Shown here piece after piece: positions 28,875 to 62,703 of a stretch of DNA of 64,000 nt; position 1 is the stretch's first letter; every line of letters begins with the position of its first letter. This DNA comes from Lachnospiraceae bacterium. Lineage in GTDB: Bacteria > Bacillota > Clostridia > Lachnospirales > Lachnospiraceae. Position numbers and translations under genes: made by a program. Below the pieces are notes generated by a model. The model was not told the origin of the DNA, did no database searches, and saw only the letters and a list, made by a program, of their open reading frames with translations. Location: positions 68,450 to 132,449 of the forward strand of contig JAAUZK010000004.1 in assembly GCA_014804655.1 (NCBI GenBank), given 5' to 3'.

Positions 28875-28906
28875 GTCAAGATCAATAATTACTTATTGAT
28901 CTTGAC
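28875..28906. terminator. Perfect 14-bp hairpin between convergent genes
   Basis: GTCAAGATCAATAA, loop TTAC, TTATTGATCTTGAC. The right arm encodes the last codons and stop region of the giant LRR protein. No T-run follows on either strand. It may act as a bidirectional terminator or protect mRNA ends. Confidence 0.45.
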
Positions 28907-31900
28907 ATTCATTGTAATCGCCGGGCCGACAGTGTTGGTGCCCTGTCCGTCGAACATAGCATACATCGTTATTTTATTGGTCGTCCCCCCTGCAAAGGAA
29001 ACTGTGTTCTTCAGCTTCACATACACATCTATGGAGCCATCCTCCCGCGGTTCTCCGCATCTGATTTCGAAAGAATCCTGCGATTTCGTATCTTTCTCCC
29101 CGAACACGACATCCGCAATATTACCGACACTGCCTTCCTTCGGCGTAACCCTAAAGGTCGCTTCGTACGCTTTATTGGACATGTATAAATTCAGATCATT
29201 TCTGTCGGCCGTCACCTTCGGCAGCACCTGTGCGGTCTTAATGTTCAATATACCCGGCACCCACATACCGTCATATCCGCCGTAATTTGCAAGTCTCACC
29301 CACATCCGGATCGGATATGTCTTCTTATTCTCCAGATCAACGCCGTCCCTAGGTGCCACATACACCTTGCCGTCGAGAACCTCCGCACGGAAATACTCAC
29401 TCTCATCATCTCCGAGTGCCGGCTCTCTGCCACCGGCGTCAAAGATCTGCACCGCTTCCACCGTATCCTTCAAATTTGTAAATGAGGGTGTATATACAAT
29501 GCTGTTCTTTAACGTATACTCTCCACTTCTGTCCACCAGATTCAGCACACCCTTTGGCGACATCTTCACGGAGATAGAACCGTTATAGACCTTCACGCTG
29601 AATTTCACGGCTTTTCCTTGGAAAGTATTAGCTCCGATGTACGTGGGCGTCATGGTAAATGCATACTTCTGCTGACTGACTCTGCTGTTTAAAGAGATCA
29701 AAAGGATATTTTCCTCGATGTCCCAATTGAAACTGTCTTTGACCGCGCTCATTCCTTTAGTCGTACATTCAATCGAATCTATCGTCCCTGCCGAATCGAT
29801 CTCATACCCCTCCGGCAGCTTAACATTCAGAGTCAGTTCCGCGGTCTCCGTATACTCGCCGTCTGATACTGCCGACAGATTCAGTGAAGGGGATCCTTTT
29901 ACCGTCATGCCCGGAAGTGTATTGACGACTTTTACCGTCAATGTAACCGCATTATAGCGCTCTCCATTAATGCCCTCTACAGAGTCGCACTTAAACTTAT
30001 ACGATCCTGCCTTGACATCCGGATCAACCGAGACGGTTCCCACACCACCATTATATTCTACATGCAGATACTCCCTTTGATTCTCATTCTTGGTCGTTGA
30101 CTGGAAGTAAAAATCCTGACTGTCGGCCAATTCCGTATCGCACTGATTGGAGGTCAAATAAAATTTTTCTTCCTGTCCCGTATAGTTACTATTCAAATTA
30201 ACCGTAGCTGTTTTCAGCTTGATCTTCGGATCGGCTCCTGTTGCCTTAACGTTATATGTGTACTTAAATGACTGCCCTTCTGCCCACTCGCTGTTTCTAA
30301 GTAACAGAACCACCTTACCTGAACTAAGGGTACTGTTAGCATCTGTATGCATTTCTATCTGGCCCTGATCATTAATATCGATATCTCTGTTTACAGCATC
30401 TACCCTACTCTCGGAAGACTTCTCAATCGTCCAGTCGCCTTCATCCAGTCTGATCTGCTCTTTGGTCTTGGTATCTATCAACGTCAGTTTGATTGTTCTG
30501 GCGGCCGGTAACGAATTAAATGTGTCTGAGGTTCTGTCTAACTTATAAGACGGTTTTACGGTCTGAGTCGGAATCGTAATCTTATATTTCTTAACCGCAC
30601 TTTCTTTATATCCCTCGAAGTGCAGTACCAGATAGCCAGTAGCAATCAGTTTATTCTTCTCCGTGAGGATCATCTGATCCTCTTTTTGTGTAATGACTCC
30701 GGTGTCCTCATCGATCTGGAAATTCTCAGTGAATAGCCAGTCATCCTTCTCCCGATCCGTAGACAACGGCTCTAACGTATACCGCGACACCTTTTCATTA
30801 CCCAAATTAGTGACAACAGGTTTCACCTCTGTGCCATCATTGGCATAGAACAGATTAATCTTCGGCTGCTTCTTGTCGAATGCAACCTTAGGGTTTGGCA
30901 AGGTGGACTTTACTGTGATCTTGAGTTGGGTAGGAATAACTCTGTCCCCCACCTTAACTTTCACGTTATAGACCTTTTCCTCCAATGTGGTATATCTTGG
31001 ATTAATCGTATAGTAATGTACCGTATCCGTACTGCTTAATTTATCACGTTCGCATTTAAAATCATCTACAGGCAACTGCTCATTTGCCGCATCAACCAAC
31101 TCAATGGTATCCGGATTGATGATTGTCCCGCCATAAGCGCTAATAACCCGTATTACCGCTCCGTCCACTTTATTAGGATTCAAAGTAATCGAAGTCGTGG
31201 ACAGGCGAGGGGTCTGATCTATGACCTGAATAATAAGTTTTCGCGATATTGTCTTCTTATCCGCGTTTGTCGCTGATACTGTAATCGTCGCCTCGCCATT
31301 GGCACCCTTCGGAATAGTCACTGTATTCGTAGTGACAGCATTCGCCGTAGAAGAAGATGCAAGCCTTGCTACGCTACTGTCACTGGTGGTCCACTTCAGT
31401 GCAACTGACATTTCGTCTAAATCCGCGTCATATGCCAGTGCCTTTAACTTAACCGCCCGTTCATTCTGGCTGACGATTTTGCTATCCAAGGAAGCAATCT
31501 GCACCGCCTGCCCGCCAATCTCCTCCTCGGTTATCGTAATGAACCGCTCGTCATTGTCATCCACTGTCAGCAGTAAAGACTCCACGTTGGTCTTGGTAAC
31601 ATGTATAGTTACCTGCTTGGGGATCGGGCCGTTGCCACCGGTCACTTTTATATTAATATGTGCCAGACCTTCCTTCAGTGCAGTAATCATTCCTGTCTTC
31701 TCGTCCACCTTGGCAATCGTGGGCTTATCTGAACTAAAGTCTATCTTCGATGTAGGAATGACATTATGATCTCCATCGAGCAGGAAGATCCTTGTAGTCT
31801 GCCCAACCTTAAGTTCTGCCCTGCTCTCCCCGTCAGATCCATTAGAAAATTCGACCGTCACATCTGTACCATTGATCGCGCTGCTTCCCGATATATTCTC

Positions 31901-33805: not shown

Positions 33806-33910
33806 TTTTTCTCCACCTTTTCTGTATATCACCTTGAACCACGTTTTCTCTTCCGAAACGCAACTATACTCTTCACCCGCTTCGTTTTCTGTGTTACAAT
33901 TTCTTAATGC

Positions 33911-34313: not shown

Positions 34314-37300
34314 CTACAACAAGAAATTTTTCCACCACACCAGAGTTTTTGACCCTATCGTATAAGTGATTTTCTTCTCGCCGCCGTAATTACCGATTCC
34401 TCTTATAATCACGGCCGCCTTTCCCTTATTTGTATGATTTGTGTATGTGTCTTCATCAATCACATAATCCACTCCGTATACAAGTTCATCCGTATTGCCG
34501 CTCACGGTGATTTTCAGATCATCCGGTGTCAGTGTAATTGCCCTTCCGTTTCGGTATACCTGCGCCTTTGCACTCACTCTCGCCTTGGCGATATCCGCCT
34601 CTACAATGCGATATATGGCAGAAATCGTGGCATCGGCTTCCGAACCGTCATTTTTCTCACCCGAATAAGCGCCGATCCCTGTTGCCGTGACACGAATCTT
34701 AGTGCCGGCCGCAGGAATATCCTCCGCTTCCACCGGCGCATCGGCTTCCCGGACGATCTCATTCCCGTCAACATCATTCCAGCTCACAGATTCCGCGTAG
34801 GTATAGATCAGATTCCTGTCATAATCCTTGCCCGCCGCCAGTTTGCTGCCGTTGCAGTCTTTCAGCGTCACCGTACTCTTGTATGTGTTCTTTTTGCCCT
34901 TATAGACCATATCTTTAACGGTCATCGTAATTTTCCCGTTTTTCTGATCCATCCGGCCATCCGTAATCGTATAGGTTCCGCTGATCGTGCCTTTAAAATT
35001 ACCCTTTCCGGTTATCGTGATCTTCGGAAGCTTCCTCTCATCGTATTCTGCAGGGTCGATGAGTGTGACTGCATTATTGTTGCTATACTTGACCGTATAA
35101 TCCTTGCCCGCCGTCAACTCATTTCCCTTAAAATACAGGAGCACCGCCGGCTTTGTACCGCCTTTGACATAAGGTGCCGTGATCTCCGAAAGCGTTGCAA
35201 TCTGTTTCAGCCGTTCCGGCTTATCCAGCGTGTAAGGCTCATCCTGTGTATAATATTTCATAGTAATTGCCGGATTCTGCCCACCGTCATCGGAACTGAT
35301 ATTATAAGCCGTTATTTTATACGTCTTCCTAATCTGTCCCGTATACTCATTGATCCCCTTAAAAGTGATGGAAGCCGTGCCGACCTTAGCAGTATTCGCA
35401 TAGACTGTCAAGTAATCACCTGTCAGCCCGTTATCCGTACTCTCAGTCAGAATCTGATCGTTTAATGTCAATGTGTATGCTCCGTAGGGCTGTCTGGCAT
35501 CTTCTTCATCGCCAGTATATTCTCTGTTGGTGATCCCTTCCACTTTTGCCTTTGCAATGGACATACCTGTAATTTTATAATTAATACTCTTGCTGCCCGC
35601 ATAGCCACTGCCCTCGACTGCGGTGATCGTCGCCGTAGCGGTTCCGATCGCAGTATTGTTAGTGTAGCTCACTGTGTAATCCCCTGTCAGACCGCCGTCC
35701 GCACTCTCCACAAGTGTCTGACCTTTGTAAGTCACCTTAAGCTCCGGCTCGATGCCGATTCCCCGCTCCTTATCCACCGACTCATTCCGATAAGTCTGAT
35801 TGGGAATCTTAGCAATGGAAACTTTACTCATCAGCACATCCTGCGTGATGATCTGGCGAATCGTTATCGTTCCTCTGTACCCGCCCTTACCTTTAATCAC
35901 GATGGGATAGGTGCCGGCCGTCTTATATGCGCCTGCATCCGTCAACGGGTAAGTTACCGTATAATCTGTATTTCTGGTCAGCTTCTTTCCGTCGCGATAT
36001 ACCGTCGGTACGCTCTTAATAACTTTGCCGCTGTAGGCAACTGTGATATTATCCGCCGTGATATCCATATCGGTCAGGGCTTTCGGAATAATGTTAAACG
36101 TTACCTGCTGCGTACCGGCATAATTTCCTTTACCTTTGACAGTAATGGTAGGTGCCGCTTTGCCTTCCTGATTGACATTCTTATTATTCTTATAGGACAC
36201 CGTGTAATCTTTATTCAGAACCAGCTCGATCAGATCTCTCTCCCCGTTTTCGTAAATCACACTGTCGTACACCTGAACAGCAGGCTTAATCGCACTGCCG
36301 GTATAGGTCTGATCCCCGATGGGCTGCACATAGAATCCTTTGCCCTGCTCTTCGTAATAGGGATAAAGCACAATGTCCTTGCTGTAGACGGTGGTCGTCT
36401 CGTCAAACCTGCGCCCTGTACCGTTCTCGCCGGTGTACCAGCCGATAAATATACTTTCTACCGGATCATATCCGCCCGCAAGAAGCATCTGCTCTCTCGC
36501 CCGCAGCGTTTCCACAGACAATGTACCGCCGTAGAGCACCCGCTGAGGCTCACCCAGCACGGTCATGCCATTCGTGCCCGGCTTCATAAACGTAACGGTA
36601 CAGTTTTCCACTATGATGGTATGCTCCGCCGTATAACCGCTCTCGCACCCAGACACTCTCGCCATGATCACCGTCGTATTCTTATCCGGATCATTGCCCA
36701 CTGCCGTCACTTTACCGTTCTCTACTGTGGCGACGTCCGGATTAGAGCTGCTCCAGACCACACTTGTATCCGAGGTGGTGTCCTTCGGATAATATTCCGC
36801 GGACAGATTAATACTCTGCCCCGCAAGCAGGGTCGTCCGATCCGCCGGATCTGTCTCCTGTGCGTTTCGATTCGTCAGGGTAATCCCGCAAATCGGTGCG
36901 CTGACATATACTATACAGGAAGCCGTCTGACCTCCAGACCTAGCTGCCTTCGCAACGATCTCTACTTTTCCTGCGCCGACGGCGCTCACGACCGCCTTGG
37001 ATTCATCCGCCGGGTCCGCCTTGACAGTAGCAATCTTCGTGTTTTTGGAAGTCCACGTGATCTTCCGATCCGCCGTCGTGTCCGCCGGATCGAATAATAC
37101 CTGCAACGTTGCCGTCGCCGTATTCTCTGCTATCTCCGCCTGACTTAGCCCTGTAGTATCCTGCACCACCGTATCGGGACGACGCAGGAATATCTCCTCT
37201 TTATCCAGCGTTATTGCCTGCAGGGATATGATTACTTTAACCTTGCAGGACACCTCTACTTCCTGATAAGCTGCCGTGATAACGGCCTCTCCCGCTTTGC

Positions 37301-39341
37301 CAGATTCCTCTCCGCCCGCTATCTTCACCAGACCGTCCTGAACTGTCACAACAGAAGGATCGCTGCTTTTCCACTCCGCTTCGGATGGATTCACTTCAAT
37401 GTCATCCACATACAGCTTTAACTGTCGTCCGCCCTCGCAGTCAGCCGGCTTGCTTCTGTCCAATGTGATACTCGTGCTACTTAGGCGCAGCATCGGGTAA
37501 TACTGATCTTCCGGCATACTTTCAAACACCGGAATCTTGAAAACAAAGGCACTGTTTAACGATCCTGCATTCGCATACATCTTCCTCGTGCTGGAGGACT
37601 CGCTGGAAGGCGCCTGGATATTCTGCATATACTGATGCTCATAGACTCCATACGGGCTGTTCTTATCAACATTAAACTTCTCCAAATATATGGTATCCTG
37701 ATATTTCAGAATATAGTTATTGCCGATCGTAGCCGCACCGCCCTCAAGGGACTTATAGCGTGTATCCCAGCCTTTCTCCTTTGCATACGTCAATCCTTTG
37801 ACAATCTTCTCCGCCGTAGAAGCGCCATTGACGCCCACATTGAAGAAGTTGTAATAACCCTCATATCCCGGGTATGTGCCGGAAATCAGTCCTGAAGTCC
37901 CCTGCCCCTGCTCCTGATATACGCGGGACGCAAGATGGATCGGGCTTAACTTCCTGCCCTTGCCGATCTCATAGAACGCCTGCGCATAAGTACGCCCCTG
38001 CGCATCGTCCGCCAGTTTTCCCTTCATAAACGTCCCGTTTAAAAAAGTCTGCACTGCTTCCTCGGTATGATAGGAGGCGTTAAACGTCAACTGTTCAAAC
38101 TGGAAAATCGAAGTTTCCGTCAGGAAATTACGCGGGTCCATATGATATGCCACTGCCGGCTGCGTCGCATAATACCACCCGCTTTCGCTTGGACACGCTT
38201 CCCCGACCCATCCATTAGAAGAGTTGCTCGTCGTCTTCTGAATCAGGCTCTTAACTCCCATCTCCTTAGAAACCGATGTGTTAAAATCAAGTCCTGTCTT
38301 CATGGGTACGAAAGTCCAGTTCGGATGTTCGCTCTTCAGACTCCTGAGCGCACCTTGATAGGACCCTGGAAACGCATTGATATCCGAAGTGTCCACGGCA
38401 TACGGAAGCATGCCATAGGCTGTCATTCCGTACGCGGTAATGCTATATTCTGGTTTTTCTCCTTCTAAGATCGGACGCAGATATTTCTTTTCCCACGCGA
38501 TCCAATCCTCATCGGAATAGGCCAGATAATAGTTCTGCACATATCCCATGCCCTCTGCACCATTCAGCCAGAACTGCACGAGATACCAGACATCATCCTC
38601 CGTAATCTTTATGCCCTTAATATACAGTGTCTGCCCGATTTCAAGCGTCGCTACGACAGCACTGTCCTTATCCGTGCTACTGCGGGCACCATAGCTGTCC
38701 GTATGATAGAGAAGCGCCATCAGATCTTTCTCTGTAAGCAGCTGATCAAAGGCCACTTCCGCGGATTTGATCAGCACATTCTTTTTTACAGCCGAGTCTT
38801 CTATATCGTTTTCCGAAACGGATGTCAGATCATTCCCGGAGACTGAATCCACGTCGTTCTCCGATACAGAATCGGTGCTATTTCCATCGGTGGATTCATC
38901 CGTACCCTCCCCGTCATCTGCTGTATCCGAGCCATCATTGTAATTCGGATCGTCCTTGTCTGTTTCTCCGCTGTCACCCGAATCGCCGTTGCTGTCATTT
39001 GGATCGGTATCGCCTGCATTCTCACTACCAGCCGTGGCCTCCGCATCACTCCCTTGACCAGAGTCATCCGCGTCCCCGATATCATCCGTCTGACCTGCCT
39101 CGACACTGGCTTCATCATGATCGGCACCCTCGTTATTATCTGTATAACCTTGGCCTGTGCTGCCACTCGATTCGCCCACGCCTTCTTCGGTCAAAGCTGC
39201 CATATCATTCTGTGTCGCTTCTATCCCCACGCCCGTCTCTTTAGCCAACGCATTAAGTGGTGTACTTCCCAAGCACAGTGCGAGGCATAAGATTATGGCA
39301 ATCCATCTGTATATCATCTCGTGAGCTCTGTGAATTCTCAT
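34314..39341 (-). CDS. Giant secreted glucosaminidase (GH73) with Big and MBG repeats
   Basis: 1675 residues from the ATG at 39341 (GGGAGAG upstream). Signal peptide 1-33. Acidic linker 50-185 ending in SVSENDVDSVSGND repeats. SH3-like domain about 225-275 (YIKGIKITEDDVWYLVQFW). GH73-type endo-beta-N-acetylglucosaminidase about 325-610: HPNWTFVPMKTGLDF, MDPRNFLTETSIFQFEQ, and probable catalytic Glu in ASRVYQEQGQG (about 477). Big2 repeats about 615-900, an InlB-type segment (IFIGWYTGENGTGRRF), then MBG/YDG-type repeats (KGKGNYAGT and similar) to the end. No cell-wall anchor. Likely cleaves peptidoglycan glycan strands in surface growth or separation. Confidence 0.92.
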   Translation of the reverse strand: MRIHRAHEMIYRWIAIILCLALCLGSTPLNALAKETGVGIEATQNDMAALTEEGVGESSGSTGQGYTDNNEGADHDEASVEAGQTDDIGDADDSGQGSDAEATAGSENAGDTDPNDSNGDSGDSGETDKDDPNYNDGSDTADDGEGTDESTDGNSTDSVSENDVDSVSGNDLTSVSENDIEDSAVKKNVLIKSAEVAFDQLLTEKDLMALLYHTDSYGARSSTDKDSAVVATLEIGQTLYIKGIKITEDDVWYLVQFWLNGAEGMGYVQNYYLAYSDEDWIAWEKKYLRPILEGEKPEYSITAYGMTAYGMLPYAVDTSDINAFPGSYQGALRSLKSEHPNWTFVPMKTGLDFNTSVSKEMGVKSLIQKTTSNSSNGWVGEACPSESGWYYATQPAVAYHMDPRNFLTETSIFQFEQLTFNASYHTEEAVQTFLNGTFMKGKLADDAQGRTYAQAFYEIGKGRKLSPIHLASRVYQEQGQGTSGLISGTYPGYEGYYNFFNVGVNGASTAEKIVKGLTYAKEKGWDTRYKSLEGGAATIGNNYILKYQDTIYLEKFNVDKNSPYGVYEHQYMQNIQAPSSESSSTRKMYANAGSLNSAFVFKIPVFESMPEDQYYPMLRLSSTSITLDRSKPADCEGGRQLKLYVDDIEVNPSEAEWKSSDPSVVTVQDGLVKIAGGEESGKAGEAVITAAYQEVEVSCKVKVIISLQAITLDKEEIFLRRPDTVVQDTTGLSQAEIAENTATATLQVLFDPADTTADRKITWTSKNTKIATVKADPADESKAVVSAVGAGKVEIVAKAARSGGQTASCIVYVSAPICGITLTNRNAQETDPADRTTLLAGQSINLSAEYYPKDTTSDTSVVWSSSNPDVATVENGKVTAVGNDPDKNTTVIMARVSGCESGYTAEHTIIVENCTVTFMKPGTNGMTVLGEPQRVLYGGTLSVETLRAREQMLLAGGYDPVESIFIGWYTGENGTGRRFDETTTVYSKDIVLYPYYEEQGKGFYVQPIGDQTYTGSAIKPAVQVYDSVIYENGERDLIELVLNKDYTVSYKNNKNVNQEGKAAPTITVKGKGNYAGTQQVTFNIIPKALTDMDITADNITVAYSGKVIKSVPTVYRDGKKLTRNTDYTVTYPLTDAGAYKTAGTYPIVIKGKGGYRGTITIRQIITQDVLMSKVSIAKIPNQTYRNESVDKERGIGIEPELKVTYKGQTLVESADGGLTGDYTVSYTNNTAIGTATATITAVEGSGYAGSKSINYKITGMSIAKAKVEGITNREYTGDEEDARQPYGAYTLTLNDQILTESTDNGLTGDYLTVYANTAKVGTASITFKGINEYTGQIRKTYKITAYNISSDDGGQNPAITMKYYTQDEPYTLDKPERLKQIATLSEITAPYVKGGTKPAVLLYFKGNELTAGKDYTVKYSNNNAVTLIDPAEYDERKLPKITITGKGNFKGTISGTYTITDGRMDQKNGKITMTVKDMVYKGKKNTYKSTVTLKDCNGSKLAAGKDYDRNLIYTYAESVSWNDVDGNEIVREADAPVEAEDIPAAGTKIRVTATGIGAYSGEKNDGSEADATISAIYRIVEADIAKARVSAKAQVYRNGRAITLTPDDLKITVSGNTDELVYGVDYVIDEDTYTNHTNKGKAAVIIRGIGNYGGEKKITYTIGSKTLVWWKNFLL
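38787..39164 (-). repeat. Low-complexity acidic linker repeats in the glucosaminidase gene
   Basis: Codons for Asp, Gly, Ser, Asn and Glu dominate (DSNGDSGDSGETDKDD and similar), followed by three SVSEND/SVSGND/SVSEND units. Encodes a flexible spacer between signal peptide and SH3 domain. A parallel linker is present in the LRR protein. Confidence 0.65.
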
Positions 39342-39408
39342 GATAAATCTCTCCCTTTTATATCCGTGTAAGGTTATAATCGTTATTATGCTATGTCTAC
39401 TGTTTTTT

Positions 39409-39437
39409 ATCATAGCACATTTTTATGAGCTTTCCAA
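39409..39437 (-). promoter_or_regulatory. Promoter for the giant glucosaminidase gene
   Basis: Minus strand TTGGAA, 17 bases, TATGAT, about 70 bases before the ATG at 39341. The rest of the 236-base gap from 39342 to 39577 is AT-rich and holds only this promoter and the terminator at 39521. Confidence 0.65.
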
Positions 39438-43769: not shown

Positions 43770-44543
43770 TTACCAGATTTTCCAAGGTGCTGCTCCGCCG
43801 CTCCATAAGTCCTCTAAATATGCTCTGTCGTGCACAGTATCCATAGGTGACCAGAATCCGGTGTGTCTGTATGCTGCCATCTGCCCATCCTGCGCCAGTT
43901 GCTCAAATGGCGATGACTCTAACATCTCGGATCCGTCACCGAGATAATCAAAGATTTCCCTATTCAGCACCATAAACCCGGCATTTACCCAAGACTGGTC
44001 TTTTCTGGCCTTCTCTTTAAAGTTTTCGATGATACCGTCGTCACTGATCTTAATCGCTCCGAATCTTCCTGCAGGCTGTGTCGTTGTGATCGTTGCCGTT
44101 TTGCCGTGTTCTCTATGGAAAGCAAGCAACGCCGGAATATCCACATCCGCCACACCATCCCCATAAGTCAACATAAAACTCTCATCTTTTCCGATATAAT
44201 CCCGTATCTGCAAAATACGGCCGGCGGTCAGAGTCTCCAGCCCGGTATTCGCCAATGTCACCCTCCACGGTTCGGCCGTAGAATTATGATATTCCCTTGA
44301 TTTATCCAACAGGCTGAATGTAGCATCCGATTGGTACATGTAATAATGGACAAAATAATCCTTGATCATATGCCCTTTATAGCCACAACAGATAATGAAA
44401 TCATTGTATCCGTAAGTGGAATATATTTTCATGATATGCCAGAGAATCGGTCTGTCCCCGATCTCTACCATCGGTTTCGGTTTTAAGACCGACTCTTCAC
44501 TGATGCGGCTTCCTTTACCGCCGGCTAAGATGACTACTTTCAT
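43770..44543 (-). CDS. rfbF: Glucose-1-phosphate cytidylyltransferase
   Basis: 257 residues, standard length. Signatures: MKVVILAGGKGSRISEESVL with KPKPMVEIGDRPILWHIMK, FIICCGYKGHMIKDYF, LTYGDGVADVDI (metal-binding Asp) and SWVNAGFMVLNREIFDYL. Makes CDP-glucose from CTP and glucose-1-phosphate, the committing step of the dideoxysugar pathway formed with rfbG and rfbH. A paralogue with an altered signature lies 40 bases upstream. Confidence 0.96.
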   Translation of the reverse strand: MKVVILAGGKGSRISEESVLKPKPMVEIGDRPILWHIMKIYSTYGYNDFIICCGYKGHMIKDYFVHYYMYQSDATFSLLDKSREYHNSTAEPWRVTLANTGLETLTAGRILQIRDYIGKDESFMLTYGDGVADVDIPALLAFHREHGKTATITTTQPAGRFGAIKISDDGIIENFKEKARKDQSWVNAGFMVLNREIFDYLGDGSEMLESSPFEQLAQDGQMAAYRHTGFWSPMDTVHDRAYLEDLWSGGAAPWKIW

Positions 44544-44583: not shown

Positions 44584-45354
44584 CTACTGAGTCTTAACCC
44601 ACGGTGCTATTCCGGCATTCCAAAGGTTCTCCATATCTACCCGATCCCGATATGTTTCAACGGGCGCCCAGAATCCGCCATGTTTATAAGTAACTAACTG
44701 TGACCGTTCGGTCAAACTATTAACTAACGCCTGTTCCAAACTATAATTTCCACCTATAAAATCAAAAACTTTTTTATGCAATACATACATTCCGGCATTT
44801 GCCCATGCCTGGCTTGTTTTAATATCCTCTTCACTCCGCACCACCTGACCCTCGTTTCCTATCATAACTGCTTTATTTCTGCCTGTCGGCCGGGCTACTA
44901 CCATTGTTGCCAGCTTATGCTGTTTATCATGTTCTTCTATCAACCGGTCAATCCGGATATCAAATAGGCAATCACCGTCTGTAACTATAAAATCATCCTC
45001 TTCAATATAATCCCGTATCTGTGCCACACGCTGTCCTGTAGCCGCATACATTCCGGTATCTACAACCGTTACTTTCCAGTTTTCTGTACGGCTCTTATGA
45101 ACTTGTATCATATTCGTCTGCAGATCAACCGTTATATCGGATTGGTAAATATAATAATCCATAAAGTACTCTTTAATCATATTTACTTTATATCCGCCGC
45201 AAATAATGAATTCATTTAACCCATACGAGGCAAAATATTGCATAATATGCCACAATAGCGGTTTGCCCCCTATCTCCGCCATTGGTTTCGGTATTCCTAT
45301 TTGCTCATTACTTATTGTACTTCTTTGTCCTCCTGCCAGAATAACTACTTTCAT
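44584..45354 (-). CDS. RfbF-like nucleotidyltransferase paralogue with altered signature
   Basis: 256 residues from the ATG at 45354 (AAAGGG upstream), overlapping the flippase gene by four bases. Clearly homologous to rfbF next door (KPMAEIGGKPLLWHIM, FIICGGYKVNMIKEYF, ANAGMYVLHKKVFDF), but the nucleotide-binding loop GGKGSRIS is GGQRSTIS: the conserved Gly becomes Arg and the catalytic Arg becomes Thr. The Asp residues survive in VTDGDCLFDI. It may use another sugar phosphate or nucleotide, or have lost activity. The duplication and coupling to the flippase gene suggest it is maintained. Substrate unknown. Confidence 0.8.
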   Translation of the reverse strand: MKVVILAGGQRSTISNEQIGIPKPMAEIGGKPLLWHIMQYFASYGLNEFIICGGYKVNMIKEYFMDYYIYQSDITVDLQTNMIQVHKSRTENWKVTVVDTGMYAATGQRVAQIRDYIEEDDFIVTDGDCLFDIRIDRLIEEHDKQHKLATMVVARPTGRNKAVMIGNEGQVVRSEEDIKTSQAWANAGMYVLHKKVFDFIGGNYSLEQALVNSLTERSQLVTYKHGGFWAPVETYRDRVDMENLWNAGIAPWVKTQ

Positions 45355-46625
45355 GATTTTATCCCTTTCAAACAACGATGCAAAATTACACTGTATACAA
45401 TACATAAAAGCAACATCAACATCATATAGGACATCACTGCTCCCAATGTTCCATACAATGAAACAATATACTTTACCGTCACAAATGCAATAATCGAAAT
45501 CACTCCATAAGCTGCCATCATTTTTTTCTGGTTTCGCATTATCGTTAATACAACTCCAAGATAACCTGACGCCGCCAATAATCCGCTTGCGACAAGTAAT
45601 AGCATGAGTTCCGCCTTATATTGCTGTAAATCAGTTTTGTAAAGAAGGGACAGTACCGGTATTCCCAAGACATATGCCCCTGTCAGACATCCCCCTGTCA
45701 ATCCTGCTATAATCAGAATCTGTCTTTTAATGCGATGTAATAATTGGTCAACTTTTCCCTCGTTCCATTCAATCGACATATATACTAATGTGGGCTGATA
45801 AATAAATCCATTTAAAAGCCCGATGACAAAAACAGGCATTGCCACAAAACCGTAACACGCCTGTACTTCATCTGTCATAACCGCGTCAATAGCATATTTG
45901 GGCGCATTATTAACATAAAAGGCAAAAAAAGTACTGCAAAAAAGCGGAAATACATTCCATAAGAGATCTTTCATTTGTGAAAAGTGTACCGTCCCAACGG
46001 AATGAAGCACTTTCCGATCCTGCGCCATACAATATCTGTTATAAGTTCTTCCGAGTGTAAAACACAAGACGAGTATAGATACGCCAAGACATATCAATAA
46101 GGTTATCATCAGATTTCTACTAACACAAAGTATAATCACAAAAGAGACCAAGATGCCCGTCCAACGGCTGCAAAACATCTTTGCTCCGACAGCCAGATAT
46201 CCCAGCCGCTGATAGTAGCCCCAAACCACATCTTCTGCTGCTTCGACGGCATATATCATACATATGGCAAAAATAATCCCGATTTTATAATAATTATAGC
46301 CGAGAATCACATAGGCATATCCCAAATACGACATACTTGCTATAATCATAAGCAGAAGCGTAATCAAACGGCTTTTTACATAAACCGCAAAAGAATAGCG
46401 CTGTTCAACATCTGTCACCTGATAATTCCGCACACCGAATTTGCCTATTGTCATCATCAAGTTTCCTATTGCAAATGCTATGGTCAACATGCCTGCATCT
46501 GATAAATTCGTTATTCTGGTAACAATCATCGACATGATTACAGCCTCAGCCGCATTAATCAATCCGGCTGTCGTATTCCAAATATAATCCTGTCTAGATC
46601 GTTTTGTCGCATTTTCCATGTCCAT
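45351..46625 (-). CDS. Wzx-like polysaccharide flippase (MOP superfamily)
   Basis: 424 residues from the ATG at 46625; the region before it lacks a clear binding site, so a TTG at 46640 or the next ATG is possible. Twelve membrane segments in the MATE/Wzx pattern, starting DYIWNTTAGLINAAEAVIMS. It resembles lipopolysaccharide and teichoic acid repeat-unit flippases. Moves lipid-linked oligosaccharides across the membrane. Together with the ABC protein at 58925 the locus holds two possible exporters, which may serve different glycans. Confidence 0.87.
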   Translation of the reverse strand: MDMENATKRSRQDYIWNTTAGLINAAEAVIMSMIVTRITNLSDAGMLTIAFAIGNLMMTIGKFGVRNYQVTDVEQRYSFAVYVKSRLITLLLMIIASMSYLGYAYVILGYNYYKIGIIFAICMIYAVEAAEDVVWGYYQRLGYLAVGAKMFCSRWTGILVSFVIILCVSRNLMITLLICLGVSILVLCFTLGRTYNRYCMAQDRKVLHSVGTVHFSQMKDLLWNVFPLFCSTFFAFYVNNAPKYAIDAVMTDEVQACYGFVAMPVFVIGLLNGFIYQPTLVYMSIEWNEGKVDQLLHRIKRQILIIAGLTGGCLTGAYVLGIPVLSLLYKTDLQQYKAELMLLLVASGLLAASGYLGVVLTIMRNQKKMMAAYGVISIIAFVTVKYIVSLYGTLGAVMSYMMLMLLLCIVYSVILHRCLKGIKS

Positions 46626-47687: not shown

Positions 47688-48614
47688 CTATTTAATAGCC
47701 CCCAAATATGTCGCACAAAAAGCTGCATGACCAATATTGATTTTATTATCCTGATTTCTTTCATGCAATCTTCCCATTTCATCTGCTATTACTCTAAGTT
47801 CATCAGCTAGCCATGAATTAAAATTATCATTTCTTTCCAGCATAACCTTCACTTTTTTGGAAAATGTACCTTTTCCATGTAAAACATCTACATTTACCAC
47901 ATTATCACAATCAAAACTTGCCCCTATCTGTTTTTGATAGGCATAAAACAAAAAGGTGCGAAACTGATTCGGACAAAATAATTCATACATTACTTGAAAC
48001 TTCATCACGGGAATTGTCTGATAAAGCAAAAGCCATTTCATACAACTATACCCCAAAAAAGCCATTAAAATATTGCGAGCACCTACAAAATTATTTGACA
48101 AATTATTAGTCAAATGCCCATAAACACGCGAATAATAGTAATCTAAAACCCCCAAAAAGGATAACTGTGATAACAAAGTGTCTATATTCTTTTTCAAATA
48201 TCCGGAATCCCAAATATAATCCGAATATAGAATTTCAAAAATTAACTGGCTCGTATAATCAGCTCTATGTTTGTTTGAAAAAGGAATACTCGCTTGACTA
48301 TCACGCATAAAAATCGAAGGATATTTACATATAGTTTTATAATATTGTTTGTTACTAAAATTAATATGATTTATCTCAATCATATTGACATCAAAATTGG
48401 TCTCACAATCAGAGAATACATACTCCTTCAGATCAGTATTCCCTCGGTCAAAAATCAAATAAAAATCCAAATCACTCATTGGTGTAGCTATTTCATAAAC
48501 CATAGTACTATGCGCACCGCCAAACAAACATTGCACATTTAATTTTTTTTCAACTCTGGCAATAAACTCCTCATCAACGCATATACTATATTTTCTATTA
48601 TCATAAATCAGCAT
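47688..48614 (-). CDS. Pol-beta-type nucleotidyltransferase-like protein
   Basis: 308 residues. The N-terminus shows the nucleotidyltransferase signature FGGAHSTMVY then MSDLDFYLIF (G-[GS]-x-x-S plus D-x-D, about residues 32-54), with a third candidate Asp in NFDVNMIEI. The rest is helical with YDYYYSRVYGH-like Tyr and His residues; no domain recognised. Its start overlaps the preceding gene by 14 bases, so translation is coupled. The region is AT-rich. Could transfer a nucleotidyl or phospho group to a glycan or protein; not a known sugar-nucleotide synthetase. Confidence 0.68.
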   Translation of the reverse strand: MLIYDNRKYSICVDEEFIARVEKKLNVQCLFGGAHSTMVYEIATPMSDLDFYLIFDRGNTDLKEYVFSDCETNFDVNMIEINHINFSNKQYYKTICKYPSIFMRDSQASIPFSNKHRADYTSQLIFEILYSDYIWDSGYLKKNIDTLLSQLSFLGVLDYYYSRVYGHLTNNLSNNFVGARNILMAFLGYSCMKWLLLYQTIPVMKFQVMYELFCPNQFRTFLFYAYQKQIGASFDCDNVVNVDVLHGKGTFSKKVKVMLERNDNFNSWLADELRVIADEMGRLHERNQDNKINIGHAAFCATYLGAIK

Positions 48615-50040
48615 TTTTCATTAGGTATACTCCCACCTGCTCCCCTCTATATATTCCTGAAAACATCCATTCACTGTTATCATGTTTACAACACAGTGAT
48701 GTGACGATAATAGCAAGCTTTACTCTGTGAACAGCTTCCCCCATATCGCGTTGATGTATAATGGCAAAATCAAATACACTATCTTCTTTTTCCGCTTTAC
48801 TCTGTGAATCAAGATTCATCAGCCGATCAATCAATATTGTATTTTCATCGTCCGCATCAACCAGATACGGAATACAACCACAACGTTTAAAATACCTGCA
48901 AAAGAATCCCGAATCATGCAAATCCAAATATACAGTCTTACCATTCAACGTATTTGTATATGCATCCTGATAAATAGACTCAGCTATTTTTTCAATAGAA
49001 ACTTTTAGCAAGCGATAAAGAAACTGTTCATCATTACAGGTTATATCATAAAAGAACGGATTTTCTATCGGCGCATTCAATTCATTGATGCAATTCTGTA
49101 CAATATACTCCTGCAACCGAGCTACGGAATCCATATTGACCCACTTACAATAATCTTCTTTTCCCATTTTAACCGGCAAATAATTCTTTCCCTTTACCGC
49201 TAAAAAAACCGCTCTATGCTTTCCGCTACACAGATTAAAATATCCTTTCTCATTCCATTGTACATATGGCGCTTGCTCTACAAAGAAATCCGGTTTCACA
49301 TCGTATAAATGATTCATCTTAACAAAGACTTCTCTTCTATTGTATATCACATTTTTTCGCCATGCTTCAGTAATACTAAACTGATCAATCTTATTCGCAG
49401 CCGATTCGCAATACCTCACATATAGATCTGTATTGCATTTTTCTATTCCTAAGACACATTTTACAAATTTAATGTGAGGTATCAGAAAAAGAATCGGCAT
49501 ATCTGACTCGATACTTTTATTCATATTTCTTTTACCACAAAATATAAGTGATATCGGTAACAGCACGGTTATATCGTTGTCATTTTCACAAAGTATAGCA
49601 TTATTAGAAACCTTCGCACTACTTTTCCTATAAGATTGTGGAATTTTTATTTCTCCGCACTGATTTTCCATAACTAAATCATATGCACGATTAATTACAC
49701 TCTCTTGCTCATCTCCATCTCCAATGACACAATTGTACGGTCGAAATATCAATTTGCTAAATCCATGATCAATTAATTCATTTGCAATCCTTGTATGCTC
49801 AAATACATTTTTAACAGTCACAATAACAACAGCATCCTGTAATTTCCCGACCGTATCAAGTGTATATACCGGAAGTCCATACAAATTGTCAATTTCGTTA
49901 CCTCTTTTATCTATAAAAGCAATCACATTGTAATTTGCTCTCGATAGTTTTTCATAAATCAAACAGCCTATTGATGCCGCTCCATATAAAATAATCTGGG
50001 TGTGAACATCAATACTAAAAAAATCTTGTTCATTAATCAT
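48601..50040 (-). CDS. Three-domain protein: Rossmann, ParB/Srx-like motif, MTase-like
   Basis: 479 residues; AGGAGA before the ATG. Residues 14-105: Rossmann-like domain (IILYGAASIGCLIYEKL, VIAFIDK). Residues 240-300: DFFVEQAPYV, then SGKHRAVFLAVKGKNYLPVK, a G-x-H-R motif plus x-P-V-K strand typical of the ParB/sulfiredoxin fold (ParB, SerK, Srx bind nucleotides). Residues 365-479: VYLDLHDSGFFCRYFKRC, VDADD, FAIIHQRD, like a degenerate SAM-methyltransferase. Paralogue of the next gene upstream, coupled to the nucleotidyltransferase downstream. No function known for this architecture. Confidence 0.7.
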   Translation of the reverse strand: MINEQDFFSIDVHTQIILYGAASIGCLIYEKLSRANYNVIAFIDKRGNEIDNLYGLPVYTLDTVGKLQDAVVIVTVKNVFEHTRIANELIDHGFSKLIFRPYNCVIGDGDEQESVINRAYDLVMENQCGEIKIPQSYRKSSAKVSNNAILCENDNDITVLLPISLIFCGKRNMNKSIESDMPILFLIPHIKFVKCVLGIEKCNTDLYVRYCESAANKIDQFSITEAWRKNVIYNRREVFVKMNHLYDVKPDFFVEQAPYVQWNEKGYFNLCSGKHRAVFLAVKGKNYLPVKMGKEDYCKWVNMDSVARLQEYIVQNCINELNAPIENPFFYDITCNDEQFLYRLLKVSIEKIAESIYQDAYTNTLNGKTVYLDLHDSGFFCRYFKRCGCIPYLVDADDENTILIDRLMNLDSQSKAEKEDSVFDFAIIHQRDMGEAVHRVKLAIIVTSLCCKHDNSEWMFSGIYRGEQVGVYLMKNADL

Positions 50041-50103
50041 TCATCTTCTCCTGCTTTTTGTAAAAATTGCATTCAAACTTACCATGAGATGCCACGGAAC
50101 TTC

Positions 50104-51591
50104 TCACTTAATAAAAGCAATCACCTTATTTACCGCCTCACCATTACAATACTGCATTATCAGTTCATGAGTCGAAAAATTTAACTTCTGCATCAATAAT
50201 TCGACATCCTCTTCAATACTTTCTGTTTCCCAAAACAAAACCCGCTTCGTTTTTTGATCCAGAAACTGTAAATATCTGTCGCTTTTCTTATACTCCTTGG
50301 ATTTTCCCATTACAAATGTCATGTCAAAAGCTTCATCTTGTAATTCTGCTAAATCCTGCGCATACTGTACTTCAACATCACGTATTCCAAGCAATATATT
50401 CAGCAATTTTGCAAATTGATATTCCTTCCATTCGGTTTCAACAGCTACTATTCTTCCTTTATCATTTTGTAGCTTCATTTTACTTATATAACGTGCAAAA
50501 TAGGAATTGTAATCACTGATATCCAATATACTTAATTGCTCTATTATATTCACCCCTATATAGCTTTGAATCGCTCCCAATACTGAGGGCTCAACGTCCT
50601 CTTTTTCACATGGAAAATCATGAAATGCCGGATGTTCAATCGGTGTCACTGTATGGGTAATTTCGTTTGTCCTCATAAAGTCAATAATATCATTAAGTGC
50701 TGTTGTCTTATATTTTTCAATAAATTCGTCAGTATCCATTTTAACAGGAATAAATGCAAGGTTCTGCAGATACAGAAATATACATCTGTGCAATCCGTCT
50801 GTAATATTTAATCCACCTCTGTCATTCATCACCACTTTAGGGGCAGACGCAATGAAAAAATCCATTCCCCTATTTAATTCCCGCTTGTACATATGCCACA
50901 ATTGATATCTGTCGAGTATTTTTTCCTTTATATACTCACCTTGTTTATCTAAATAATTTTGGGCAGACAAATACTCTCGTAAATTTCTCCCATCGATGCC
51001 CTTCTCATAATATTCAAAAAGCGCTTGATAATGCACCGCCGCCGCCAAACTCCGCCCATAATATTTTATATTTTCAGTAACCACCTGCTGTCTTGCATTG
51101 TTTACAAATATATTCTGCGTTTTCATCCAAAAAGTTGTTTCTGCATTATTTTGGTCAATAATTCCGTTCTCAGCTCGAATAGAATATATCGGTAATAACT
51201 CGTCATAAAATGGGATAGGTTCATCAAATCTATAAGAATTGGCAATCAAAAGATTATAGATCTTCCGCATATTGTTCATCTGGTTTATTTTTCCCCTAAA
51301 ACTTGCAGGCAGGAAAATAACCCTGTTAATCCCAGCGGCAAAAATATGTTCCGCAATATTTTGATGTGCAATCGCATTCTGCAGGGAAATTATAACTGTA
51401 ATATCCATCTGGGCCATATCCCCAATCTGATCTGCAGAATATATTTTTATTTCTGTTTTTCCTTGAACATATTTATCAATAAAAACAATATCATTAAATC
51501 CATTCTGCTCCAAATATTTCTTTATTCTAATTCCATTTGGAGTATATCCATATATTCCTATCGTTTTCCCTTTATCTAATCTATACGGCAT
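50104..51591 (-). CDS. Three-domain protein, paralogue of the 48601-50040 gene
   Basis: 495 residues; AGGGGA before the ATG. Same layout: Rossmann-like N-terminus (TIGIYGYTPNGIRIKKYL, DIVFIDK, about 8-95), then DFFIASAPKV and TDGLHRCIFLYLQNLAFIPV (about 244-283), the ParB/Srx-like G-x-H-R motif in its canonical D-G-x-H-R form, then TPIEHPAFHD, shared with APIENPFFYD of the paralogue. The C-terminal domain LSILDISDYNSYFARYI, VAVETEW, MTFVMGKSK resembles a Rossmann methyltransferase lacking a clear G-x-G. Both copies occur in tandem within a glycan locus; roles unknown. Confidence 0.7.
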   Translation of the reverse strand: MPYRLDKGKTIGIYGYTPNGIRIKKYLEQNGFNDIVFIDKYVQGKTEIKIYSADQIGDMAQMDITVIISLQNAIAHQNIAEHIFAAGINRVIFLPASFRGKINQMNNMRKIYNLLIANSYRFDEPIPFYDELLPIYSIRAENGIIDQNNAETTFWMKTQNIFVNNARQQVVTENIKYYGRSLAAAVHYQALFEYYEKGIDGRNLREYLSAQNYLDKQGEYIKEKILDRYQLWHMYKRELNRGMDFFIASAPKVVMNDRGGLNITDGLHRCIFLYLQNLAFIPVKMDTDEFIEKYKTTALNDIIDFMRTNEITHTVTPIEHPAFHDFPCEKEDVEPSVLGAIQSYIGVNIIEQLSILDISDYNSYFARYISKMKLQNDKGRIVAVETEWKEYQFAKLLNILLGIRDVEVQYAQDLAELQDEAFDMTFVMGKSKEYKKSDRYLQFLDQKTKRVLFWETESIEEDVELLMQKLNFSTHELIMQYCNGEAVNKVIAFIK

Positions 51592-51602
51592 TTTATGTTC
51601 CC

Positions 51603-52646
51603 CTACATATCTTCAAAAGAAATGTCAATTCTTCTGTCCCATGTATGATTTTCTTTTATTACTCTTGCCGGATTTCCTGCGATAATGCAGTTCTTCTCTG
51701 TATGCAATTTCACTAAACTATTAGCTCCGACAATACACCCATCACCAATATCTGCATTATGTAATACTGTTGCACCCTTTCCAATCCACACGTGATTACC
51801 TATTTTTACATACTCTTCATTTAATCGCGCTGTATTGATCTTCTGAACCAAGTCGAAAATGCTATGCCCGCCATAAGCTATTACGGACACATCATTAGAT
51901 AACATACTATCATTTCCAATTTCGACATAAGCATTTTCCCCATTTAAACATAAGAAGCGCTCTCCTACCGTTACGCTGTCGCCAAGCTTTATGGTCGCAC
52001 CCCTTGATGTTATTCTTGAGCCTTTAGCTATTACACTACTCTTTCCTATTTCCAAGACTCCTCCATTAATTGCCTCCAATTGCACCTCTTTACATATTTT
52101 AACATAATCGCCTATCACAACGCTCGCTTCATTCTCTACAATGATATGCGCAGATTTTTTTGCCTCCATCCCTTTTCCGATCCTCACTCTATTGTTATAC
52201 CCAATCATTGTAATACTACAATTAATCTCCGCATCATCAAACTCAATTGTATTGCCGTAAATATCCTTATATGCTCCGCCACATTTAGTAACTGTTATCT
52301 GCGGAATATCCTTGGATATATAAATATAATCAACATTTTCCTGCATCTGAAAACGGTGCAGCCAATCTGTTATCTCTTTTCTGACACCTACCACTGCTAC
52401 TAAGACAAATATTGTATCATTTGCCATCATTTGTGGCTTAACAACCGGAAATCCCTGATAAAATTGCTGTTCCTTATGCGCATCAATATAACATTTTACC
52501 CTAATATTTTCTTTTTCCAGTACTCGCTGTAGCTCTCCCCCACCGGCATAAGCCCCCCAAATAGCGACCTCTCTTCCACTGATAAGCTTCTTAAGCTGCG
52601 TAAAATCTACATTTTTCAACCACTGCCCGATTATTTTATAATCCAC
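51603..52646 (-). CDS. Rossmann plus left-handed beta-helix acyltransferase
   Basis: 347 residues with a GTG start at 52646 (AGAGGA eight bases upstream). Residues 25-115: the same Rossmann-like module as its neighbours (VAIWGAYAGGGELQRVL, CYIDAHK). Residues 135-330: hexapeptide repeats of a left-handed beta-helix (VRIGKGMEAK, VVIGDYVKIC, VKIGNHVWIGKGATVLHNAD, GCIVGANSLV) with a C-terminal AGNPARVI, typical of O- or N-acyltransferases acting on sugars. The putative catalytic His is in YGGHSIFD. Likely acylates a nonulosonate or dideoxysugar. Confidence 0.82.
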   Translation of the reverse strand: MDYKIIGQWLKNVDFTQLKKLISGREVAIWGAYAGGGELQRVLEKENIRVKCYIDAHKEQQFYQGFPVVKPQMMANDTIFVLVAVVGVRKEITDWLHRFQMQENVDYIYISKDIPQITVTKCGGAYKDIYGNTIEFDDAEINCSITMIGYNNRVRIGKGMEAKKSAHIIVENEASVVIGDYVKICKEVQLEAINGGVLEIGKSSVIAKGSRITSRGATIKLGDSVTVGERFLCLNGENAYVEIGNDSMLSNDVSVIAYGGHSIFDLVQKINTARLNEEYVKIGNHVWIGKGATVLHNADIGDGCIVGANSLVKLHTEKNCIIAGNPARVIKENHTWDRRIDISFEDM

Positions 52647-60809: not shown

Positions 60810-61880
60810 CTAATTTTCCGGAATTGCAACCAAATGTGTGTGTACTCCTGACCGCAAAATATATCTATATTTACAACCCTCTTTCTCTAAAAAGCGGGGA
60901 ATAGTATATATATCTTCAATATGATGATATACACATATGGCCATATACGGTTTGTATTTTTTGATATATTTCATACCACCCTTTAATATATCAAGTTCCA
61001 GCCCTTCCACATCCATCTTGATCACCAGCCGGCCTTCAATATTCAGGTTTTCCTCATCTAATGGTACTATTCTTATTATTGTTCCTGCTTCCCCTTGAGC
61101 ATCCGTCACCCCAAACATACTGGAAGACTTAGCAAAAACCTTATCTTCTCGTCTCGCCCCCAGCGCTTTATTGAATGCAATGACATCCTTTTCATATGAC
61201 TTACTCTTTATATTGTCACACAACATCTTGTAATTGCACTCTTCCGGTTCATACGCATAATATCGACATATCTTATCACCATACAAGTTATACAGTTCGT
61301 CAATCGTATCCCCCACATATGCACCCAGATCAAGAATCGTCATATGATCGTTTCCATTTAACTCATTCAGATAGAAATATCCATCCACACCCTGCATGCC
61401 CTTGTTCTGCATATAGGATTTAAACATAAAATCTTTTTCTTTTCTCGTCTTCACGATAAAATCTAATATTTCCTTTGTAATGACCTCATTTATATCATAT
61501 ATATTATATAACTCCTGTTCATAGTGCAGTATGAACTGATTGCTGTATGCCAATAATTTATCGTCATACTCTACATTTACCAGCATCAACCACAAAAACG
61601 GAGCAACCTTGATATCATATCGTTCTAATTCTTCTCCAAGTGTCTCCTGTAATCTTATATAGATATCATCAAAAAAACACGACGCAATAATAATCGTCCT
61701 GGAATCGTAATCTTTAATCGCATCCGGAGATATTATCGGTATGCCCTCAATACTCTTTCCCCACTTTGCAGGATTAGCATCGGCAACACATACAGGCATT
61801 AATTTATGTGTATGCATTATTCTCAATACTTTTGATGTTCCGCTTCCGGCTCCGTATAAAATTATATTCTCTCTTGCCAT
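60810..61880 (-). CDS. Rossmann plus FkbM family methyltransferase
   Basis: 356 residues from the ATG at 61880 (AGAGGA upstream); an ATG at 61901 is an alternative and overlaps the preceding stop. N-terminal Rossmann-like module about 4-100 (ENIILYGAGSGTSKVLRIM, PVCVADANP), then the FkbM domain: ILDLGAYVGDTIDELYNLYG (SAM site, about 185), YAYEPEECNYKML, VIKMDVEGLELDILKGGMKYI. It is the intact counterpart of the split gene at 54928-56092. O-methyltransferase for a sugar in the surface glycan; target unknown. Confidence 0.9.
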   Translation of the reverse strand: MARENIILYGAGSGTSKVLRIMHTHKLMPVCVADANPAKWGKSIEGIPIISPDAIKDYDSRTIIIASCFFDDIYIRLQETLGEELERYDIKVAPFLWLMLVNVEYDDKLLAYSNQFILHYEQELYNIYDINEVITKEILDFIVKTRKEKDFMFKSYMQNKGMQGVDGYFYLNELNGNDHMTILDLGAYVGDTIDELYNLYGDKICRYYAYEPEECNYKMLCDNIKSKSYEKDVIAFNKALGARREDKVFAKSSSMFGVTDAQGEAGTIIRIVPLDEENLNIEGRLVIKMDVEGLELDILKGGMKYIKKYKPYMAICVYHHIEDIYTIPRFLEKEGCKYRYILRSGVHTHLVAIPEN

Positions 61881-61893
61881 TATTTCCTCTTTC

Positions 61894-62703
61894 TTAATCA
61901 TTATTTGTTTCCTGTCCATCATAAGTACACAGATTCCTGCTTCTGTTATTAAGAATGTCTTCCTTCATCAACTCGTACGCCTTGTCCAGACTGAGAAGCC
62001 GGAAGTTCACTCCGTTGATCTCATATGTTCTCACCGCACTCGCTTCAATAAACTTTTCCTCCATAGGATTGATGGTAACATGCACATTCTTATCTAAATC
62101 CCGCACAAACATGGAATAGGTTCTTATTTCTTCCTTTCCCTGTTCATCAATATATCCCGCTGTAAATTCCTTTATATACCGATATGGAACGTTTCCCTCC
62201 CATTCTTCCGCATAATGCGCAAAAGTAAAGCTGTCCTGATAGCTGACATCTATAAAAAGATTTTTCGCCCGGACTTCCTTTAGATAAGCGAAAGGCGAAT
62301 CCTGCCCGAAGGAATCTTTGTTCTCCATTTTATATAGTCTCTTGGCATCCTTGCCCCACACCGCAAAAGAGTATAGCGGATGCTTTGTCCTGACATAATC
62401 CTTCCTCTTTAATGCCACCTTTCCTAAGCTACCTGTCCTACTGGGGGTCCGGTGATAATCGAAAGTGACACCTTTGCAAAAATCCCAGTTAAAAGTCGGA
62501 AGAAGTATCGTTCCTTCGCTTCCCACTGTCTCCATCAGGCTTTCCAGAAATATATTCAGGTCAGTATCATCTTCATGTTCCAAACATTGGAACAACAATC
62601 CTTTCAAGTCGGAAGAAATCAGTAACGTATCGCCCTTATTAATAGCCAGTTTGTCTACTATATCCCTCAAATGAACATATTCTTTATACCTATCATCACA
62701 CAT
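61894..62703 (-). CDS. AAC(3)-like N-acetyltransferase family protein
   Basis: 269 residues from the ATG at 62703 (GGAG twelve bases upstream). Motifs: GDTLLISSDLKGLLFQCL, VGSEGTILLPTFNWDFCKG, YVRTKHPLYSFAVWGKDA (conserved R-x-x-H-P, acetyl-CoA site) and SFGQDSPFAYLKE. The family was named for aminoglycoside 3-N-acetyltransferases, but members in O-antigen loci acylate amino sugars. In this setting a sugar N-acetyltransferase is more likely than antibiotic resistance. It is 13 bases before the FkbM gene and six after the capsule-type gene. Confidence 0.86.
   Translation of the reverse strand: MCDDRYKEYVHLRDIVDKLAINKGDTLLISSDLKGLLFQCLEHEDDTDLNIFLESLMETVGSEGTILLPTFNWDFCKGVTFDYHRTPSRTGSLGKVALKRKDYVRTKHPLYSFAVWGKDAKRLYKMENKDSFGQDSPFAYLKEVRAKNLFIDVSYQDSFTFAHYAEEWEGNVPYRYIKEFTAGYIDEQGKEEIRTYSMFVRDLDKNVHVTINPMEEKFIEASAVRTYEINGVNFRLLSLDKAYELMKEDILNNRSRNLCTYDGQETNND

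Follow-up and report, generated by a model that had tools for sequence, protein, structure and literature searches.

Paired ParB/sulfiredoxin-fold proteins in Lachnospiraceae glycan loci and their possible role in surface-glycan modification

What might two neighboring, related proteins that match no described family do in a bacterial glycan locus? The question is raised by a stretch of 64,000 nucleotides from a Lachnospiraceae bacterium (contig JAAUZK010000004.1 of assembly GCA_014804655.1), hereafter the window, in which an earlier reading of the sequence alone had noticed two adjacent open reading frames (ORFs) of 479 and 495 residues, here called A and B. Their coordinates, lengths and minus-strand location were confirmed, as were the motifs that this sequence-only reading had found them to share, specifically DFFVEQAPYVQ...SGKHR...LPVKM and APIENPFFYD in A, and DFFIASAPKVV...DGLHR...IPVKM and TPIEHPAFHD in B. 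The two proteins are 24% identical across 342 columns (E 1e-22) and are thus paralogues, and A and B are the only matches to A in the source assembly at E values up to 10. Neither has a Pfam or NCBIfam match above cut-off, nor any match in PHROGs at E up to 0.1. The answer that we favor, with a probability of roughly 0.4, is a nucleotide-dependent enzyme, with A and B as its subunits, for modifying a building block of the surface glycan. The three-domain anatomy of both proteins is well supported, and the chemistry is what we infer from it.

With respect to this anatomy, profiles and predicted structures bear out the order first suggested: a Rossmann domain at the N-terminus, a ParB/sulfiredoxin (Srx)-fold domain in the middle and a methyltransferase fold at the C-terminus (Table 1). 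The Rossmann domain, matched by profile or fold, is of the type that begins the sugar acetyltransferases PglD and NeuD, although A and B lack the hexapeptide acetyltransferase domain of those enzymes. The best PDB profile match, the designed TIM barrel 7mcd (E 7.9e-10), was discarded as spurious, as it consists of one short piece matched four times and touches the Rossmann part only. In the middle, the ParB/Srx fold, which binds nucleotides and is familiar chiefly from proteins of chromosome segregation, is predicted directly for B. An AlphaFold2 (AF2) model of its segment 138-336 has a predicted local distance difference test score (pLDDT) of 84.5 and a predicted template modeling score (pTM) of 0.78, and rows 1-33 of a VIA fold comparison comprise 31 named ParB/Srx-fold structures and 2 uncharacterised entries, the first unrelated fold appearing at row 34 and mostly unrelated folds from there on; a further fold comparison of this domain gave single matches that were weak. 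For A, the same fold is predicted by homology and by a matching order of elements, the secondary-structure elements following one another in the AF2 models as they do in B, except that B has an additional short helix of low confidence. The first strands of the fold lie near A149-168 (B144-163) and are parted from the GxHR-containing portion by a helical insertion, which makes the domain longer than the residues 230-310 originally assigned to it; the fold stood and the extent did not. No structure prediction without a ParB/Srx fold emerged from these searches.

The nearest sequence relative of known structure is the serine kinase SbnI, the sole PDB match of the middle domain at E < 0.1, which the family profile finds with moderate E values of 5.4e-4, 0.0015 and 0.0079. 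The DGxHR of B corresponds to the DGVHR of SbnI, and the SGKHR of A, which has Ser in place of Asp, corresponds to the Srx signature [GS]GCHR, whose His and Arg bind nucleotide phosphates according to the available part of PMC4619093. The Arg of this GxHR/GxxR motif is kept in all 14 A-type and all 16 B-type rows, counts that leave out the near-copies of locus L059. In A numbering, G20, N78, G93 and P289 do not vary over 27 family members, and at least 90% of these members keep Y19, D44, H82, A86, R235, F253, G273 and R276, a level of conservation that exceeds chance. E30 of SerK, a residue named in PDB titles, is what we take to be the catalytic Glu of these kinases; the hidden Markov model alignments to SbnI begin downstream of this position, and the VIA comparison gives ranges only. 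A and B share their fold with the free serine kinases SbnI and SerK, but differ in being three-domain proteins that are paired, lie in glycan loci and carry the helical insertion.

At the C-terminus, a fold match shows that A retains a class I methyltransferase fold, and alignment with A and with a Paenibacillus homologue (L065) points to the same fold in B. Because both proteins lack the S-adenosylmethionine (SAM) glycine motif, motif I, a working transferase, as in the suggested fusion of a kinase to a transferase, is unlikely in either.

Table 1. Coordinates of A, B, their domains and the flanking genes in the window.
Feature	Positions	Strand	Basis or remark
Nucleotidyltransferase (pol beta)-fold protein	47688..48614	-	GG...SDLD motif; overlaps end of A by 14 bases
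Protein A, SGKHR-type member	48601..50040	-	ORF, 479 aa; AF2 model pLDDT 89.1, pTM 0.86
A residues 335-479, class I methyltransferase fold, no SAM glycine motif (YLDLHDSGFF)	48604..49038	-	
A residues 149-315, ParB/Srx-fold domain with helical insertion	49096..49596	-	SbnI profile matches; element order as in B
SGKHR of A, counterpart of Srx signature [GS]GCHR	49213..49227	-	Motif alignment; signature from PMC4619093
A residues 13-105, PglD/NeuD-like Rossmann domain	49726..50004	-	
Protein B, DGxHR-type member	50104..51591	-	ORF, 495 aa
B residues 325-495, methyltransferase-like C-terminus, no SAM glycine motif (ILDISDYNSYF)	50107..50619	-	
B residues 144-308, ParB/Srx-fold domain	50668..51162	-	AF2 of segment 138-336; fold comparisons
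DGLHR of B, counterpart of SbnI DGVHR	50785..50799	-	Profile alignment
B residues 8-100, Rossmann domain	51292..51570	-	Aligned with A
Upstream neighbor of B, A/B-type Rossmann domain + hexapeptide acyltransferase	51603..52646	-	Hexapep; NeuD-like below cut-off

Relatives were sought in 98 related genomes, in one genome per species across 84,980 species (a pattern scan), in plasmids and in 398 genomes of the phylum. Genomes, viruses and plasmids were scanned with strict patterns or by tblastn, and more distant family members could have escaped detection. The pattern scan returned 13 loci, the window's own included, in hosts labeled Lachnospiraceae, Roseburia, Clostridium sp., Eubacteriales or uncultured bacterium, with one complete genome (AP025576.1) among them. 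In the phylum sample 2 of 398 genomes matched, again counting the window's own, a figure that measures rarity at that search sensitivity only. After L052, L058, L060, L062 and L063 were dropped as repeats of the window or of each other, the family comprised 34 proteins from 17 loci, in which L047 and L059 are near-copies and L049 and L050 share one genome. Two loci are outliers, namely L070, a pair from another family of the same phylum, and L065, a single gene on a Paenibacillus plasmid, whose product is WP_152403578. A fragment at a contig end of one further related genome (L037, G011:C250:2-106) is 100% identical to B over its initial 35 residues, and the locus may therefore continue in a gap of that assembly.

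The pairing of A and B is old and lasting. A maximum-likelihood tree of the 34 proteins contains a branch with 100/100 support that sets the 15 A-type rows ([ST]G[KR][HN]R) apart from all others, namely 17 of the B-type ([DEG]Gx[HN]R) and two, termed X, in which the motif is lost. The tree is unrooted, support for placement within the B side is poor, and the B of the window sits on a long branch. Since A-types of different loci cluster with one another and not with the B of their own locus, the duplication looks ancient by this phylogeny; the proteins are tandem paralogues, as proposed, but the copying was apparently not recent. A B-type gene is present in each of the 14 loci that have A. It immediately precedes A in 11 of them, at gaps of -37 to +63 and, by mechanical ORF starts, with an overlap in 6 of the 11; A comes first in L053, and the two genes lie apart in L055 and L064. 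The remaining arrangement, B and X in the absence of A, is found in L049 and L051. Here the X members (L049:10002-11486 and L051:15585-17105) still carry the methyltransferase motif but no longer GxHR, a pattern opposite to that of A and B. As these are two rows of one clade, and perhaps one event, we have not relied on this reciprocal pattern.

The surroundings of these genes are equally consistent. From their gene content all 17 loci are read as glycan loci, in agreement with the context first suggested for the window, and homologues spread widely outside such loci with an unrelated function did not turn up in these searches. The cluster of the window's thiamine diphosphate (ThDP) enzyme recurs in 10 of the 17 loci and that of the FkbM-type methyltransferase in 11, and the clusters with its NTP_transferase, DegT aminotransferase and sugar-dehydratase genes recur in 7 each; we take the dehydratase, aminotransferase and NTP_transferase genes to represent a CDP-glucose route. 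Even the outlying L065 is set among glycosyltransferase genes. The Rossmann module of A and B also occurs on other glycan enzymes. The family profile matches the N-terminus of the acyltransferase-type protein upstream of B at E 4.7e-7 (as L052:7395-8438), the module is likewise present in L047:13173-14300 and L050:13436-14623, and an FkbM methyltransferase of the window (60810-61922) starts, by Pfam, with a domain comparable to it. The module may be one that different enzymes share for docking their substrate.

Nucleoside triphosphate (NTP) use, and most likely phosphotransfer by B, is suggested by the fold, the phosphate motif and the nearest solved sequence relative. In the mechanism that we favor, the Rossmann domain would dock the substrate, a sugar nucleotide, a role that its relatives may also have on the acyltransferases and methyltransferases of such loci, and B, with the DGxHR of a kinase, would bind the NTP and place phosphate onto a substrate hydroxyl. 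A, whose SGKHR is nearer the Srx signature, would also bind NTP, completing or regulating the active site in a hetero-oligomer; the C-terminal fold, presumably a former methyltransferase, would now be a scaffold; and the nucleotidyltransferase-fold protein encoded beside A would act on the same intermediate. The A/B complex would most likely be a ParB/Srx-fold kinase derived from a kinase-methyltransferase. The same fold also serves CTP switches, nucleases and sulfiredoxin, and the kinase role in the original proposal of a sugar- or lipid-modifying pair, possibly a kinase, is therefore conjectural.

Should the C-terminal fold be a former methyltransferase, the ancestral reaction was probably phosphorylation followed by methylation, as in WbdD, whose kinase fold is unrelated; the Paenibacillus form suggests, from its sequence, that this ancestor joined a ParB/Srx domain to a working methyltransferase. 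WbdD of E. coli O9a phosphorylates and then methylates the glycan end, as described in the available part of PMC3482155, using a eukaryotic kinase fold and an active methyltransferase, whereas A and B have a ParB/Srx fold and no SAM motif; by analogy, the pair could embody a related idea on another fold, with methylation lost. The fullest version of this proposal is speculative and, taken as a whole, rather unlikely. It holds that A and B form a hetero-oligomeric ParB/Srx-fold glycan kinase that, with a dedicated nucleotidyltransferase-fold partner, adds phosphate or phosphodiester to Lachnospiraceae surface sugars, having evolved from a methyl-phosphate-capping kinase-methyltransferase as the ParB/Srx-fold counterpart of WbdD.

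Fusions of ParB and methyltransferase domains have precedent. The available part of a survey of the ParB-CTPase fold (PNAS 2025, PMC12704722) describes such fusions, reports that those with bacterial SAM methyltransferases bind ATP, and names SerK, SbnI and Srx as enzymes of this fold. One of its figure legends links the fold with PF02195, for which A and B give no match, and a Rossmann fusion, pairing and a glycan locus are not described for those proteins in that part of the survey. Our search of the open-licence literature found no report linking the ParB/Srx fold to glycan assembly; a single paper that it returned concerns restriction-modification genes. What is new here is the old A/B division, the nucleotidyltransferase-fold partner and the mostly motif-less methyltransferase domain.

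The main rival to phosphotransfer is a regulatory switch or scaffold, in which A and B would bind CTP or ATP and open or close in the manner of ParB with no transfer of phosphate. According to the available part of PMC12704722, ParB, Noc and PadC use the fold as a switch or scaffold, and it is increasingly seen as a general NTP-binding module. Two paired ParB folds recall ParB dimers, the fused methyltransferase fold without a SAM motif would suit a scaffold, and Noc and ParB head the VIA comparison, with Srx, SbnI and SerK within about 1 Z unit of them. Sequence profiles nonetheless point to SbnI rather than ParB. Pfam PF02195 (ParBc) has no match in A, B or 13 members at E up to 1, a scan of 27 middle domains with E of at most 0.1 gave none either, and no helix-turn-helix domain was recognised in Pfam/NCBIfam-type scans of A, B and the members. 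We regard the switch as a possibility to be taken seriously, if on balance an improbable one. Phosphorylation of a sugar by A and B would make them a new class among the enzymes that modify surface glycans. Whichever holds, the SGKHR/DGxHR split and the pairing, constant in the loci collected here, offer a compact system for how one copy of a fold became another's partner.

The gene after A raises a further alternative, slightly less probable still, in which A and B would prepare or present an acceptor for the nucleotidyltransferase-fold enzyme, for nucleotidylation or for phosphodiester joining of the kind by which LicD-type enzymes join acceptors. Such a gene occurs in 13 of 16 loci (L065 left out), directly after A in 7 of 14, and the DxD is invariant in 13 aligned rows. 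The assignments differ in kind: L046, L047, L048 and L061 pass the RlaP or NTP_transf_2 cut-off; L050, L054, L057, L059, L064, L049 and the window were assigned by clustering with those; and L053 and L055 have weak matches below cut-off. No such gene is present in the stretch fetched for L051 and none is supported in L070, where the gene after A (11754-12533) was dropped as a candidate for want of Pfam support or a profile match; the L056 stretch ends 192 bases past A, too short to tell. The cut-off for RlaP-type nucleotidyltransferases (PF10127) is exceeded by the neighbors in L046, L047, L048 and, narrowly, L061, but Pfam scans of the window's copy gave nothing meaningful. It is linked through L061 alone, being 25% identical (E 3e-11) to L061:11454-12317, which passes the NTP_transf_2 cut-off.

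These neighbors fall into three clusters that hhalign does not convincingly join, the RlaP-type profile scoring probabilities of 5.9 to the window's protein and 7.7 to that of L053; given these low values, the clusters were joined by motif and Pfam instead. A profile of six nucleotidyltransferase-fold proteins matched 11 of the 98 related genomes, strongly (E < 1e-130) in 4, all with A, and at 4e-9 or worse in the rest, so that strong homologues of this subgroup appear in no genome that lacks A. The window's genome, whose copy belongs to another cluster, was not matched. As the four strongly matched genomes themselves supplied profile rows, only the absence elsewhere is informative.

It is improbable that A and B are divergent but active methyltransferases that bind SAM without the usual motif, with the ParB/Srx part binding an acceptor or regulating. 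The retained class I fold in A and an Arg after motif I (R382) conserved in 13 of 14 A-type rows fit such a role, and motif I, read by eye, looks intact in L065, L049_10002, L050_9520 and L051_15585. These are the only 4 of 30 members with the domain that keep it, however; it is lost in the other 26, and the domain is absent altogether from 4 B-type partners of 313-325 aa. A separate methyltransferase-type gene of 512-531 aa stands beside the members and the nucleotidyltransferase-fold gene in L055 (5523-8936) and L053 (9285-11647), following, in L055, a B-type protein without a methyltransferase domain of its own.

A nuclease or plasmid-conflict protein is very improbable, for although PFIN (Osa) is the commonest Pfam match of the middle domains (15 of 27) and Osa has reported ATPase and DNase activity in the available part of PMC4619093, every locus reads as a glycan locus, 50,697 phage records held no match for A or the Paenibacillus homologue, none of 69 pattern matches in IMG/VR encoded a relative, and the single plasmid record found with A places its match among glycosyltransferase genes. 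The same phage and IMG/VR results led us to set aside a mobile-element role. A search with the Paenibacillus protein matches 116 plasmid records, only one of which covers 80% of it; the remaining rows listed are partial, mostly of the methyltransferase half, and none reaches its N-terminal 128 residues.

Among the other products of the window are NeuC, above cut-off, and FkbM proteins, as well as two that stay below cut-off, a NeuB/PseI-type synthase and a PglK-like ATP-binding cassette transporter. The window shows no NeuA, the CMP-sugar synthetase, and we considered the pair as a replacement; none is needed, because CTP_transf_3 genes above cut-off sit upstream on the same contig (L075). A link to flagellin was also dropped, as the 6 Flagellin_N matches in the genome all lie on other contigs and no linkage was seen. 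NTP_transferase proteins usually carry a GGxGTR-type loop. Two adjacent ones in the window, 45% identical, have GGKGSR at the start (43770-44543) and GGQRST (44584-45405), and L061 has a comparable pair (15701 and 16526). Just downstream of the glycan genes lie two very large proteins of 1647 and 1699 aa (28889-33832 and 34314-39413), which look secreted by eye.

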